Positions 23,897 to 32,189 of a stretch of 64,000 nucleotides of DNA are shown one piece after another. Made by a program: the position numbers and the translations under genes. The DNA is taken from positions 1 to 64,000 of IMG/VR virus record IMGVR_UViG_3300021092_000036; one strand, written 5' to 3'. Below the pieces are notes generated by a model. That model had not been told where the DNA came from. It was given only the letters and a program-made list of their open reading frames with translations, and searched no databases. The stretch's first letter is position 1, and each line of letters opens with the position of its first letter. The stretch comes from a virus.

Positions 23897-25012
23897 ATGA
23901 CAAAAATAGAGTATATTTGGCTTGATGGTTATACACCAGAACCAAATTTGAGAAGTAAAATTAAAGTAAGTAATATTGACGTTACAGATTTCACATCAAT
24001 CCCTGAATGGAATTTTGACGGTTCTTCTACCTTACAGGCTGAAGGTGATAAATCAGATTGTATTCTAAAACCTGTGAGAATGTATCGTGAAGTAGGTTGT
24101 GTTGATAGGGTTTATGTATTATGTGAAGTAATGAATTCTGACGGAACACCGCATGAAACAAATCAAAGAGCTAAATTGGGTGAGGAAGATAGAGACATGT
24201 GGTTTGGGTTTGAACAAGAGTACTTTATACGAGAATTGGGAGGACAAATATTAGGACATACTAAAGGTTTTATTGAACCACAAGGTAAATATTATTGTGG
24301 TGTTGGACATAATGTAATAGGTAGAAATATTGTTGAAGAACATATGGATTTATGTTTAAGTATGGGTATAAATATAACAGGTGTAAATGCTGAAGTTGCT
24401 TTAGGTCAATGGGAATACCAAGTATTCTCACAAGGTAAATTAAAAGCTGGGGACGACCTATGGATGTCAAGATATTTAATGGAAAAACTTTCAGAAAAAT
24501 ACGGTTATTGGATTGAATATCACCCTAAACCATTGAGAATCGGAGAATGGAACGGGTCAGGGCTCCACACTAATTTTTCAACACACAAAATGAGAAATGA
24601 GGGTGGGGAAAAGTATTTCAATTCTTTATTTAATGCTTTAGAATCACGAAGAGATACTCACATTGAAGTTTATGGTTCCGATAATGATTTAAGGTTAACA
24701 GGTAAATATGAAACACAATCAATTAATAAATTTAGTTGGGGTGTAAGTGATAGAGGAGCCTCAATACGAGTACCATTATCAACCGCTAAAGAATGGAAAG
24801 GTTATATTGAAGATAGAAGACCTGCATCAAATGCAAATCCTTACGAAATTATAAAAGTTATTTCTGACACCATTGATATGGCAAATGAACTTGATGAAAC
24901 AGTTCAAAATATGTTTAGTAATGTAAGTGTTAAAAATTTTGATGAGGTTGCAAAGAAATATAATGGTATTCTTACAAGTGAGGAATTATTGAACGAATAT
25001 AAAGAAGATTAA
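23897..25012 (+). CDS. Type II glutamine synthetase
   Basis: A 371-residue glutamine synthetase of the GSII (eukaryote/flavobacterial) type, which makes glutamine from glutamate, ammonia and ATP. All key segments are intact: WNFDGSST at 38-45, substrate/metal acids in WFGFEQEYF near 102-110, NAEVALGQWEYQV near 163, NGSGLHTNFS near 217-226, and the arginine segment DRRPASNANP near 306. Length matches GSII rather than the roughly 470- or 720-residue GSI/GSIII. It looks functional and is an unusual auxiliary metabolic gene for a phage. It follows a wHTH-like gene and precedes DUF3310 in one operon. Confidence 0.95.
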   Translation: MTKIEYIWLDGYTPEPNLRSKIKVSNIDVTDFTSIPEWNFDGSSTLQAEGDKSDCILKPVRMYREVGCVDRVYVLCEVMNSDGTPHETNQRAKLGEEDRDMWFGFEQEYFIRELGGQILGHTKGFIEPQGKYYCGVGHNVIGRNIVEEHMDLCLSMGINITGVNAEVALGQWEYQVFSQGKLKAGDDLWMSRYLMEKLSEKYGYWIEYHPKPLRIGEWNGSGLHTNFSTHKMRNEGGEKYFNSLFNALESRRDTHIEVYGSDNDLRLTGKYETQSINKFSWGVSDRGASIRVPLSTAKEWKGYIEDRRPASNANPYEIIKVISDTIDMANELDETVQNMFSNVSVKNFDEVAKKYNGILTSEELLNEYKED

Positions 25013-30306: not shown

Positions 30307-30343
30307 AACCCTAACAAATTTAGCCATTTGTTAGGGTTTTTTG
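30307..30343 (+). terminator. Strong intrinsic terminator
   Basis: Perfect 13-bp stem AACCCTAACAAAT/ATTTGTTAGGGTT, 6-nt loop, then T run, directly before the SmpB promoter. Confidence 0.9.
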
Positions 30344-30354
30344 TTTTTATTTCG

Positions 30355-30362
30355 TATATTTG
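30355..30362 (+). promoter_or_regulatory. Host-type -7 box TATATTTG, near-leaderless
   Basis: TATATTTG ends 5 nt before ATG 30368, so transcription would start at about the start codon. Confidence 0.5.
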
Positions 30363-30367
30363 CTCCT

Positions 30368-30799
30368 ATGGGTAAAGTTTATATTGAAAATAGGAAAGTA
30401 AGATTTGAATATCACATATTAGAAACTTATACTGCTGGTATCGTTCTACAAGGGACCGAGATAAAGTCCATTAGAAACGGTAAGATATCCATGAACGACT
30501 CATTCTGTTATTTTAATAATGGGGAATTATTTGTTAAAAATATCCTCATATCTGAAACTAAAGATGCTTTTACTCACAATGCAAAAAGAGATAGAAAACT
30601 TTTGTTAAAAAAGAAAGAATTAAATCGATTGAGTAATAATTTGGTGAAAGGTTTTACTATTTTACCATATAAAGTTTTTATGAATGATAAAGGTTTGGTT
30701 AAAGTTGAAATAGTGTTAGGTAGAGGTAAAAAACTATACGATAAAAGAGAAACAATTAAAGAAAGAGATATATATAGAGAACTTAAAAAAGAATATTAA
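30368..30799 (+). CDS. smpB: SmpB, tmRNA-binding protein
   Basis: A 143-residue SmpB, close to the usual 145-155. Recognised by VRFEYHILETYTAGIVLQG, EIKSIRNGKISMNDSFCYF and the C-terminal GRGKKLYDKRETIKERD, which is the conserved ribosome A-site tail. SmpB works with tmRNA to rescue stalled ribosomes. I saw no tmRNA in this window, so it would act with host tmRNA or one elsewhere in the phage. The start at 30368, not the longer frame into the terminator, is supported by the TATATTTG box and by alignment to family N-termini. Confidence 0.95.
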   Translation: MGKVYIENRKVRFEYHILETYTAGIVLQGTEIKSIRNGKISMNDSFCYFNNGELFVKNILISETKDAFTHNAKRDRKLLLKKKELNRLSNNLVKGFTILPYKVFMNDKGLVKVEIVLGRGKKLYDKRETIKERDIYRELKKEY

Positions 30800-30800
30800 T

Positions 30801-31103
30801 ATGGAAAAACAAATTAGTGCCGTAGAATGGTTATTTGCTAACCTAAATATTTCAAAATCCACCCGCTATATCAATATTGAAGTATTTGAACAAGCCAAAG
30901 CAAAAGAGAGAGTTCAAAAGGCAGAGGAATACCTAAAAGGATTCAAAGATGGTAAAGAATATCAGATAAAATTAGATGAATTAACCTTTGGTTCAAGTAA
31001 ACAAATTATGAGTACAGATATTCCAATTACCAATAAAGACAAAGAAGAATTGAATAAAATATTAAACAGAATACAAATGAATTTAACCTTTAAATCAGAA
31101 TAA
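30801..31103 (+). CDS. AVEWL-family small protein, copy 1
   Basis: A 100-residue protein beginning MEKQISAVEWLFANL. It contains the block FEQAKAKERVQKAEEYLKGF (residues about 34-53), also found almost unchanged in 31728-31916, then an insert and a tail ending in TFKSE. Proteins starting 'KTAVEWLxxQ' and ending 'ETFKSE' are common in Bacteroidota phages and prophages; function unknown. First member of a five- to six-gene tandem array in which each stop codon is embedded in a similar sequence. Confidence 0.75.
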   Translation: MEKQISAVEWLFANLNISKSTRYINIEVFEQAKAKERVQKAEEYLKGFKDGKEYQIKLDELTFGSSKQIMSTDIPITNKDKEELNKILNRIQMNLTFKSE

Positions 31104-31322
31104 ATGAAAAAAGCAGAATTAGGTCAATTTTTATTATGGGAAAAAAGATTGGCAAAAATCATTGGCAAAGCATATAATGAACAAGCCATTATTGAAATGA
31201 TTGAAAACAAGTGTTGCCCACATTGTAAAGGTGATTTAGGTAAAGAACAAATACACGTTATTGTATCATCCCCTATGTATCAAAAAGGTGCAGAGCCAAT
31301 AGAATCAATTAAATCAGAATAA
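31104..31322 (+). CDS. Small CxxC protein in tandem array
   Basis: A 72-residue protein. The middle has CCPHCKGDLG, a zinc-knuckle-like pair; the last residues are SIKSE, matching the KSE end shared across this array. It starts directly after the previous stop. No function known. Confidence 0.7.
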   Translation: MKKAELGQFLLWEKRLAKIIGKAYNEQAIIEMIENKCCPHCKGDLGKEQIHVIVSSPMYQKGAEPIESIKSE

Positions 31323-31323
31323 G

Positions 31324-31500
31324 ATGAATAACCCATTTAGAATTATAGACCGAAGTAAAAATAAACTTGGAAAACATATTGACTACTGTAAAGAAATGAT
31401 TGAAATATGCAATAGAAAATCAAATAAATTAAAACCTTATTATTTTAAAAAACAAATTGAAATAGCAAAAAGAAAATTATTAACCTTTAAATCAGAATAA
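31324..31500 (+). CDS. Small basic protein in tandem array
   Basis: A 58-residue lysine-rich protein (MNNPFRIIDRSKNKLGKHID) ending LLTFKSE, the same end as its neighbours. It fits exactly between two array genes, with the junction taaGATG on both sides, which is the main support. Confidence 0.7.
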   Translation: MNNPFRIIDRSKNKLGKHIDYCKEMIEICNRKSNKLKPYYFKKQIEIAKRKLLTFKSE

Positions 31501-31501
31501 G

Positions 31502-31726
31502 ATGGAAAAACAAATTAGTGCCGTAGAATGGTTAGAAAATGAATTTAAAGAAATGTGTAAAGATTTTGGAGGTCTTCATACAGATTTTATTGAAAGATTT
31601 GACCAAGCCAAGCAAATGGAAAAGGAGCAGATAATAGAGTTTGCAAATAATTATGGATTTGACATTTGTGCTTATGATTATGAAAGAGCAGAACAATACT
31701 ACAAAGAAACATTTAAATCAGAATAA
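31502..31726 (+). CDS. AVEWL-family small protein, copy 2
   Basis: A 74-residue protein whose first 11 codons (MEKQISAVEWL) are identical in DNA to those of copy 1. Middle: RFDQAKQMEKEQIIEFANNY; end: AEQYYKETFKSE, the form typical of this Bacteroidota phage family. Function unknown. Confidence 0.75.
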   Translation: MEKQISAVEWLENEFKEMCKDFGGLHTDFIERFDQAKQMEKEQIIEFANNYGFDICAYDYERAEQYYKETFKSE

Positions 31727-31727
31727 G

Positions 31728-31916
31728 ATGAAACAGACAGCAGTAGAATGGTTATATGATGAAATAAAACACATTATACCAAATGATTTTGTAGTAAAAT
31801 TTGAACAAGCCAAAGCAAAAGAGAGAGTTCAAAAGGCAGAGGAATACCTAAAAGGCTTCAAAGACGGTAAAGAGTACCAGATAAAATTAGATGAGTTAAC
31901 CTTTAAATCAGAATAA
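31728..31916 (+). CDS. AVEWL-family small protein, copy 3
   Basis: A 62-residue protein beginning MKQTAVEWLYDEI. From FEQAKAKERVQKAEE to ELTF it repeats copy 1 (30886-30986) with only a few third-position differences. The frame is open further upstream, but ATG 31728 sits at the standard array junction. Function unknown. Confidence 0.75.
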   Translation: MKQTAVEWLYDEIKHIIPNDFVVKFEQAKAKERVQKAEEYLKGFKDGKEYQIKLDELTFKSE

Positions 31917-31917
31917 G

Positions 31918-32154
31918 ATGGAAAAAAAAAGTATGCACTACGGAGACGTATCAAAATGGATAGAAAAAGTAATTGACTCTTGTGAGACATACCAACAGAC
32001 ACATGCCACCAACCAATTGGTTAGAAATTTTAAAAATCAATTAATGAAAAGGACTCCTGACAAATATTGGAGAGATTATCATTATGACGTTATTTTACCA
32101 CTTGAAAATTTAGTAATATATAAAAGACAATCTTTTATTAATAAAACTGAATAA
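31918..32154 (+). CDS. Last gene of tandem array, unknown
   Basis: A 78-residue basic protein (MEKKSMHYGDVSKWIEKVID). It lacks the AVEWL start but keeps the junction and ends FINKTE, a drifted form of the FKSE end. It closes the array; a new consensus promoter follows. Confidence 0.7.
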   Translation: MEKKSMHYGDVSKWIEKVIDSCETYQQTHATNQLVRNFKNQLMKRTPDKYWRDYHYDVILPLENLVIYKRQSFINKTE

Positions 32155-32158
32155 TAAT

Positions 32159-32189
32159 TTTGGTGATGTAATATTTTTTACTATCTTTG
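32159..32189 (+). promoter_or_regulatory. Consensus host-type promoter
   Basis: TTTG 32159-32162, 19 nt, TATCTTTG 32182-32189; 33 nt before ATG 32223. Confidence 0.75.

Follow-up and report, generated by a model that had tools for sequence, protein, structure and literature searches.

Six small open reading frames follow one another on the plus strand at 30801-32154 of the window (the whole stretch analysed here, 64 kb out of the 65.7 kb of an IMG/VR virus record), each starting one base past, or right at, the stop of the preceding one. The locus raises the question of how genes this small come to stand in such a row, and of what their repeated ends are. An earlier note, made from the letters of this DNA, had described six genes with a common end and had read them as a recombination cassette in which the ends stay fixed and the interiors are swapped. 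The six genes are indeed present, and the cassette reading is strongly supported by breaks in homology at the junctions and by reassortment of gene segments; the common end, however, holds for genes 1-5 only, each of which is followed by a copy of the junction, whereas gene 6 has none (Table 1).

Table 1. Positions of the array, its junctions and its left neighbour in the window
Feature	Position	Strand	Remarks
-7 box TATATTTG, Bacteroidota type	30355..30362	+	before SmpB; probable promoter
SmpB gene	30368..30799	+	left neighbour of the insertion; Pfam PF01668, E 4.7e-49
Inserted block	30801..31917	+	genes 1-5 with their junctions, 1117 bp; absent in L239, L240, L241, L242, L243 and L274
Direct repeat ATGGAAAAA	30801-30809 and 31918-31926		flanks the block
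Gene 1	30801..31103	+	AVEWL family, 100 aa; head as in gene 4, body as in gene 5
Extra segment of gene 1	30990-31088		33 aa, GSSKQ...IQMN; between two TTAACCTTT copies
Junction element 1	31085..31106	+	AACCTTTAAATCAGAATAAATG; G absent (TAAATG)
Gene 2	31104..31322	+	72 aa, CxxC-type (CCPHC), non-AVEWL; end IKSE
Junction element 2	31304..31326	+	ATCAATTAAATCAGAATAAGATG; ATCAA in place of AACCT
Gene 3	31324..31500	+	58 aa, non-AVEWL; FKSE end within the element
Junction element 3	31482..31504	+	exact consensus
Gene 4	31502..31726	+	AVEWL family, 74 aa; three helices predicted
Junction element 4	31708..31730	+	one mismatch
Gene 5	31728..31916	+	AVEWL family, 62 aa
Junction element 5	31898..31920	+	exact consensus; stop of gene 5 and initiation region of gene 6
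Gene 6	31918..32154	+	resident right neighbour, outside the cassette; HYGDVxKWIEKVIDSCET

Gain of the block beside SmpB

Domain searches of selected ORFs and of the neighbours of the array found phage-like cargo in the window (sigma-70, DnaJ, SbcC-like, two DNA methylases, glutamine synthetase, NUDIX, glutaredoxin, RmlC and amidase); the glutamine synthetase-like gene of this phage record lies at 23897-25012 (PF00120, PF03951). Promoter-like sites of the form TTTG-N-TAnnTTTG were found 5' of several genes of the window (11 against 5.6 expected, with one of 100 shuffles reaching as many), which points to a host that probably belongs to the Bacteroidota. The array stands directly behind SmpB, and the box before this gene is the probable promoter reading through it, the next full -33/-7 match beyond the array being at 32159-32189. 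A search of the window for a tmRNA partner of SmpB gave none. Relatives of SmpB itself are present in Prevotella Lak megaphages and in at least 92 stretches of IMG/VR.

Relatives of the locus were collected through a search with SmpB (loci fetched for comparison carry L numbers). Comparing related phages for gain and loss of units had been the earlier note's own test, and six relatives lack the block: their SmpB stop is followed by one base, the ATG of gene 6 and then a gene of 258 aa. L239 and L240 are 85.8% identical to the window at the nucleotide level over 1.8 kb, and L241 about 79%. The window is collinear with these relatives on both flanks and has exactly 1117 bp more, which end at the resident ATG and span from the ATGGAAAAA of gene 1 to the last base before the ATGGAAAAA of gene 6. 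Since the short form is shared by relatives of more than one level of divergence, the simplest reading is that the block was gained in the lineage of the window, recently and at a start codon. Additionally, gene 5 is 99.4% identical to L003 over 177 nt and gene 1 is 98% identical to it over 206 nt, whereas the other 5 kb of that contig stretch are without similarity to the window. Gene 6 is 78-80% identical to its counterparts in L239-L243, which is the level of the backbone (78-86%). The cassette genes arrived by horizontal transfer, between phages that are otherwise unrelated. The same virus from another sample (L238) is identical to the window for 1983 bp and ends inside the repeat of gene 1.

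The NKTE tail of gene 6, which the earlier note had counted among the shared ends, is vertically inherited (GKTE, DKSE, NKSE and QSKE in the relatives) and no start codon comes after it. We therefore rejected gene 6 as a member of the array: it is an old resident without the element, and the cassette consists of genes 1-5. Within the cassette, the three AVEWL starts that had been noticed are those of genes 1, 4 and 5; the first 33 nt of genes 1 and 4 are identical, and the stretch of about 100 nt that had been seen in two genes corresponds to a repeat of about 105-106 nt in genes 1 and 5. Five codons differ in this repeat, all silently, and with only silent changes between recent copies the encoded proteins appear to be maintained. 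Gene 2 had no informative DNA or protein relative among the fetched loci, and gene 3 had weak ones in L362 and L037 (about 45% aa), the element following in a different frame in L037. The 33-aa segment of gene 1, which L003, L010 and L014 have too, looks like an insertion within the joint itself. A second array of like build is found on another contig, with four tandem AVEWL genes one base apart (L367:1875-2705), and in L149 AVEWL units alternate with other small genes.

The joint between the genes

What repeats at the junctions is a DNA element of 23 bp, AACCTTTAAATCAGAATA-RR-ATG. Its five copies are the only ones in the 65.7-kb record; all share the strand of the genes, and a reversed pattern gave 0 matches. 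A pattern scan of IMG/VR with TTTAAATCAGAATARRATG gave at least 120 matches, and over 194 distinct instances conservation was high from AACC to ATG and dropped sharply to weak or background levels outside. With a search pattern that did not include the ATG, this codon stood at most 12 nt downstream in 190 of 192 usable instances, and the exact RRATG was present in 171. The upstream ORF is stopped by an in-frame TAR (129), by TTTAA (28) or by (T)AA (15), so that all three frames are represented, and stops in differing frames imply that conservation of the DNA does not depend on the frame that is read. The ORFs after the element fall into 93 families among 171, and 137 of 182 upstream ORFs belong to the AVEWL-type group. 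Furthermore, a synonymous change of TCA to TCT, which still encodes FKSE, had 9 matches in all of IMG/VR against the at least 120 of the native form. The fixed ends thus go beyond what the earlier note had proposed, as they include a stop/start element of DNA that is restricted to viruses and precedes genes of 93 families. A variant with AAATG accounts for 12 of the 171 instances and its complete count in IMG/VR is 56 stretches, from which we estimate about 800 exact copies of the element. A second type of joint with the same first half, AACCTTTAAACAACAAGAAC(A/T)ATG, was seen in 16 copies (L019, L022, L063, L136 and others), and AACCTTTAAAAAACAAGAAAAATG is a variant that shares this half and in L136 comes right after an apparent tRNA 3' end. 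Other recurrent small cassettes by elements are the MSSEDIGFC, MTPKEKAQ, MFGKYRKPK, MKANELRIGN and MEKKYFIIEVGED families (L006, L063, L102, L149, L187).

In cellular genomes the element is near chance level, and it is restricted to viruses. A GTDB-based collection of 257 Gb contained two exact copies, both in Flavobacterium, and in the Flavobacterium order a shorter pattern hit 3 of the 396 genomes (reversed control, 1). Of 395 Bacteroidota genomes, 2 gave AVEWL matches; one of these results is unlikely to be real, since it consists of six identical matches within a 330-aa frame. With so few matches in Bacteroidota and Flavobacterium-order genomes, a cellular origin of the element or of AVEWL was rejected. 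An RNA element was also rejected, as the sequence had no match in Rfam and folded no better than its shuffles, without a stable fold.

What the element could do is suggested by its sequence. In F. johnsoniae, an A at -3, -6, -12 and -13 raises translation (PMC6847099), and the element has A at all four positions. Among the loci studied, all four adenines were present at 88.5% of 61 element starts versus 13.2% of 1815 other starts. The element also carries stops for two of the three frames; a preceding T adds a stop in the remaining one. Inside 30801-31917 there is no TAnnTTTG promoter box, sigma-70-like matches in the array occur in chance number, and no terminator was found in the array, the lone terminator-like site being at 30307-30338, before SmpB. 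The natural reading is that the element would act as a portable joint of stop and start, by which the gene that follows in an operon stays translated.

The joint is also where similarity between loci ends. Across all pairs of fetched loci, alignments that met an element junction stopped there in 87% of cases, versus 50% at other tight gene junctions, a comparison of pairs that are not independent, so that its P value is indicative at most; counted per junction, the break rates were 83% and 50%. Since half of the other tight junctions are broken too, mosaicism at gene boundaries is general. The ERF annealase gene (PF04404) overlaps its next gene by ATGA in 16 loci, and elsewhere this junction holds the element alone (L088), an AVEWL gene with the element (L134) or other genes with the element (L098, L199). 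The same junction is a hot spot for the insertion of small genes, with or without the element (L149, L134, L199, L098, L088, L121, L178).

Frozen nodes and reassorted segments in the AVEWL family

The AVEWL family, as we name it here, is defined by a MxxTAVEWL head, a QAKxMEKEQ centre and a YYNET(F/Y)K tail in proteins of 58-90 aa, and the enlarged set comprised 254 distinct genes. Gene 4 has head, centre and tail; genes 1 and 5 have the head, EQAK and the FKSE end, with variant centre and tail, and genes 2, 3 and 6 are outside the family. Within the genes the conservation extends to the DNA, in frozen nodes (ATG-AAACAGACAGCAGTAGAATGG; GAACAAGCCAAA-N-ATGGAGAAGGAGCAGATA; GAACAATACTACAACGAAACC). 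The head codons ACA-GCA-GTA are used in 96-98% of cases versus 36-41% in the background. In the centre, QAK has GCC in 82% (background 10%) and MEKEQ has GAG in 94% and CAG in 90% (31% and 27%), and in the tail TAC reaches 98% (35%), ACC 83% (14%) and TCA 100% (42/42, versus 31%).

Between the frozen head, centre and tail lie two variable segments, V1 and V2. We took gene copies in unlike surroundings that had one segment in common at 95% identity or more, and handled 3905 small ORFs identically as controls. The other segment was also common in 11% of the AVEWL cases (n=45) versus 89% of the control small genes (n=88), a count that holds when exact duplicates are not removed, and examples of reassorted segments were found at 100% identity. 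This comparison showed a near-independent assortment of V1 and V2 between conserved segments. In the array, V1 of gene 4 resembles L005 and L006 (88-89% nt) and its V2 resembles L366 and L367 (100% and 96% nt), so that gene 4 is itself a V1/V2 reassortant; V2 of L006 in turn resembles that of gene 5 (93%). In random gene pairs the median exact run at the central node was 14 nt, which is below known efficient pairing lengths, and exchange there may therefore need mismatch tolerance or longer node matches.

The predicted structure of the gene 4 protein has three helices (7-18, 27-50 and 58-71; pLDDT 81.6), and its variable segments lie about the loops. AVEWL proteins had no significant match in Pfam, PHROGs, NCBIfam or PDB folds, and their best BFVD match was an uncharacterized protein of an uncultured phage (E 0.088, probability 0.97); membership of a known protein family or solved fold was rejected on this basis. 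Among isolate phages, megablast gave no match to the region and tblastn none to AVEWL, and blastn with a 60-nt junction query was unspecific. All the AVEWL sequences seen here come from metagenomic contigs.

Probable exchange at the joint, alternatives and known systems

Taken as a whole, the locus is best explained, and in our judgement probably so, as a recently acquired stack of cassettes from a virus-borne pool, with a joint and frozen nodes. According to this, genes 1-5 would be newly acquired mobile gene cassettes, drawn from a large pool of small genes, mostly AVEWL, that circulates in phages probably infecting Bacteroidota. Each unit would run from its start codon to the 23-bp joint with its stops, a strong initiation region of Bacteroidota type and the next start. 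Because the joint would supply all of these, a unit could be added, lost or swapped in an operon without a promoter of its own and without silencing the next gene. Recombination at the nodes would likewise reassort V1 and V2 into chimeric three-helix proteins. That shuffling takes place at the frozen nodes and that the joint is portable is what we consider very likely in this explanation, and part of the conservation of the element could come from recent spread and not from function.

In this regard, lambda Red-beta needs 23-27 bp of identity, and short identity suffices for mosaics by relaxed homologous recombination (PMC3945230). As this requirement is close to the length of the joint, we infer that phage annealases are the likeliest agents, and we lean, with reserve, towards single-strand-annealing recombinases of phages having made the exchanges. 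ERF, a phage annealing-protein family, adjoins several of these genes, which recalls the Rad52-like annealases; in that known case, however, the homology is ordinary gene sequence, whereas here dedicated short nodes occur across unrelated genomes. No annealase was identified among the selected ORFs of the window that were searched, and domain and family searches found no recognisable enzyme or recombinase encoded in the units.

Of the other explanations, the one that survives best, though unlikely, is that the element is a strong translation-initiation region under selection and that shuffling happens there since gene borders tolerate change. Its adenine positions do fit the Flavobacterium measurements, and other tight junctions are broken in 50% of comparisons. 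However, only 13% of other starts have all four adenines, so that a start does not require the exact 23-mer, breaks are commoner at the element, and the frozen nodes far from start codons are exchange points as well. A genuinely mobile element with an enzyme of its own, in which the joint would be the attachment or insertion site of site-specific recombination as in integron cassettes or transposons, seems to us very unlikely: no recombinase is recognisable in the units, the element folds no better than shuffles, no inverted ends surround the block, start-codon microhomology is common to the flanks and exchanges also occur at internal AVEWL nodes, even if such an enzyme would suit the precise ATG boundaries, the solo element, the stacks of unrelated genes that each end in the joint and the restriction to viruses. 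The shared ends could also be a conserved protein tail, YYNETFKSE, under selection, with the DNA repeats as a by-product, as the AVEWL-type majority of the upstream ORFs and the place of the tail within the predicted third helix would have it. The scan with a synonymous variant and the copies out of frame refute this as a full explanation, and it is rendered extremely improbable also by the frozen codons (TCA in 42/42), by the element kept after unrelated proteins that end in another frame and by the solo copy at one ERF junction, in L088. Exact runs at the central node fall short of the length at which typical assembly k-mers would join. Lastly, it is hardly credible that metagenome assemblers made false chimeras by joining differing genes at repeated nodes, for although all records are metagenomic and L238 ends inside gene 1, within the repeat, that contig breaks and does not cross the repeat, 31 or more exact central-node bases occur in only 2% of random pairs, identical V1-V2 combinations recur in contigs of several metagenomes (e.g. 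L006-L009) and the flanks of the insertion are collinear with the relatives.

The preferred explanation, a cassette stack with a portable joint, has partial parallels in known systems. The promoter-stem-loop (PeSL) cassettes of T4-like phages (Arbiol et al. 2010; Comeau et al. 2014), as they are presented in PMC4503421, also have short repeated regulatory sequences at gene borders and shuffled small accessory genes. They consist of promoter and terminator motifs, whereas the joint combines a stop with a translation start, lies within an operon and has neither promoter nor stem, and here shuffling takes place within genes too. No early promoter was found at the cassette borders inside 30801-31917, and no stem-loop terminator at each border, the element being without a stable fold. 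The Start Associated Sequences (SAS) of cluster K mycobacteriophages are likewise short, repeated before starts and virus-specific; as PMC3203893 outlines them, they are almost absent from host genomes and have a proposed role in translation initiation. The element shares their repetition, association with starts and restriction to viruses, but the SAS sequence, GGGATAGGAGCCC, is unrelated to it, was not found upstream of the starts here and belongs to another host group, and the passages of PMC3203893 on SAS do not describe them as breakpoints of homology or as carriers of the preceding gene's stop codon.

The specificity subunits of type I restriction systems, HsdS, also have two variable regions between conserved ones and reassort by crossover in the middle (PMC3874165), but HsdS is a large bacterial DNA-recognition protein and the phage protein has 60-80 aa; the Pfam search found no relation of AVEWL to HsdS, and the shared reassortment is a working likeness only. 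In contrast to integron gene cassettes, the units have no foldable site with inverted repeats at their 3' ends, and whole-segment exchange at 95-100% identity is unlike the adenine-directed mutation of diversity-generating retroelements. We rate the system as a form of phage modular mosaicism in which the portable stop/start joint and the frozen intragenic nodes are unusual. No prior description of the element or of the family was found among the open-access papers searched, a set from which many are missing.

The variety of V1 and V2 would matter, we suggest, for the binding of host or competitor targets; that the proteins bind at all, with a specificity that can be swapped, is a guess, and a role in the host, in defence or in phage competition is proposed tentatively. 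An anti-defence or host-takeover function, as the earlier note had in mind, is not supported by these data. If the variable segments do bind such targets, the pool would be a natural library of small binders. It is quite possible, if short of probable, that phages, probably of Bacteroidota, pool combinatorial tiny genes whose frozen joints serve as standard connectors for new binding proteins, and the same reading, held with the same reservation, would make the pool the viral equivalent of diversification by the joining of segments, with a connector that is also a translation signal. The locus offers a concrete and countable mechanism for the gain of tiny genes by phages, in which gain and chimerism are both plug-in events, and it makes testable a long-standing question: whether the mosaic structure of phages at gene boundaries arises from random breaks that selection then filters, or from dedicated short sequences that steer it. 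For Bacteroidota, in which the start of translation is poorly understood, it would also supply an expression joint that needs no promoter.
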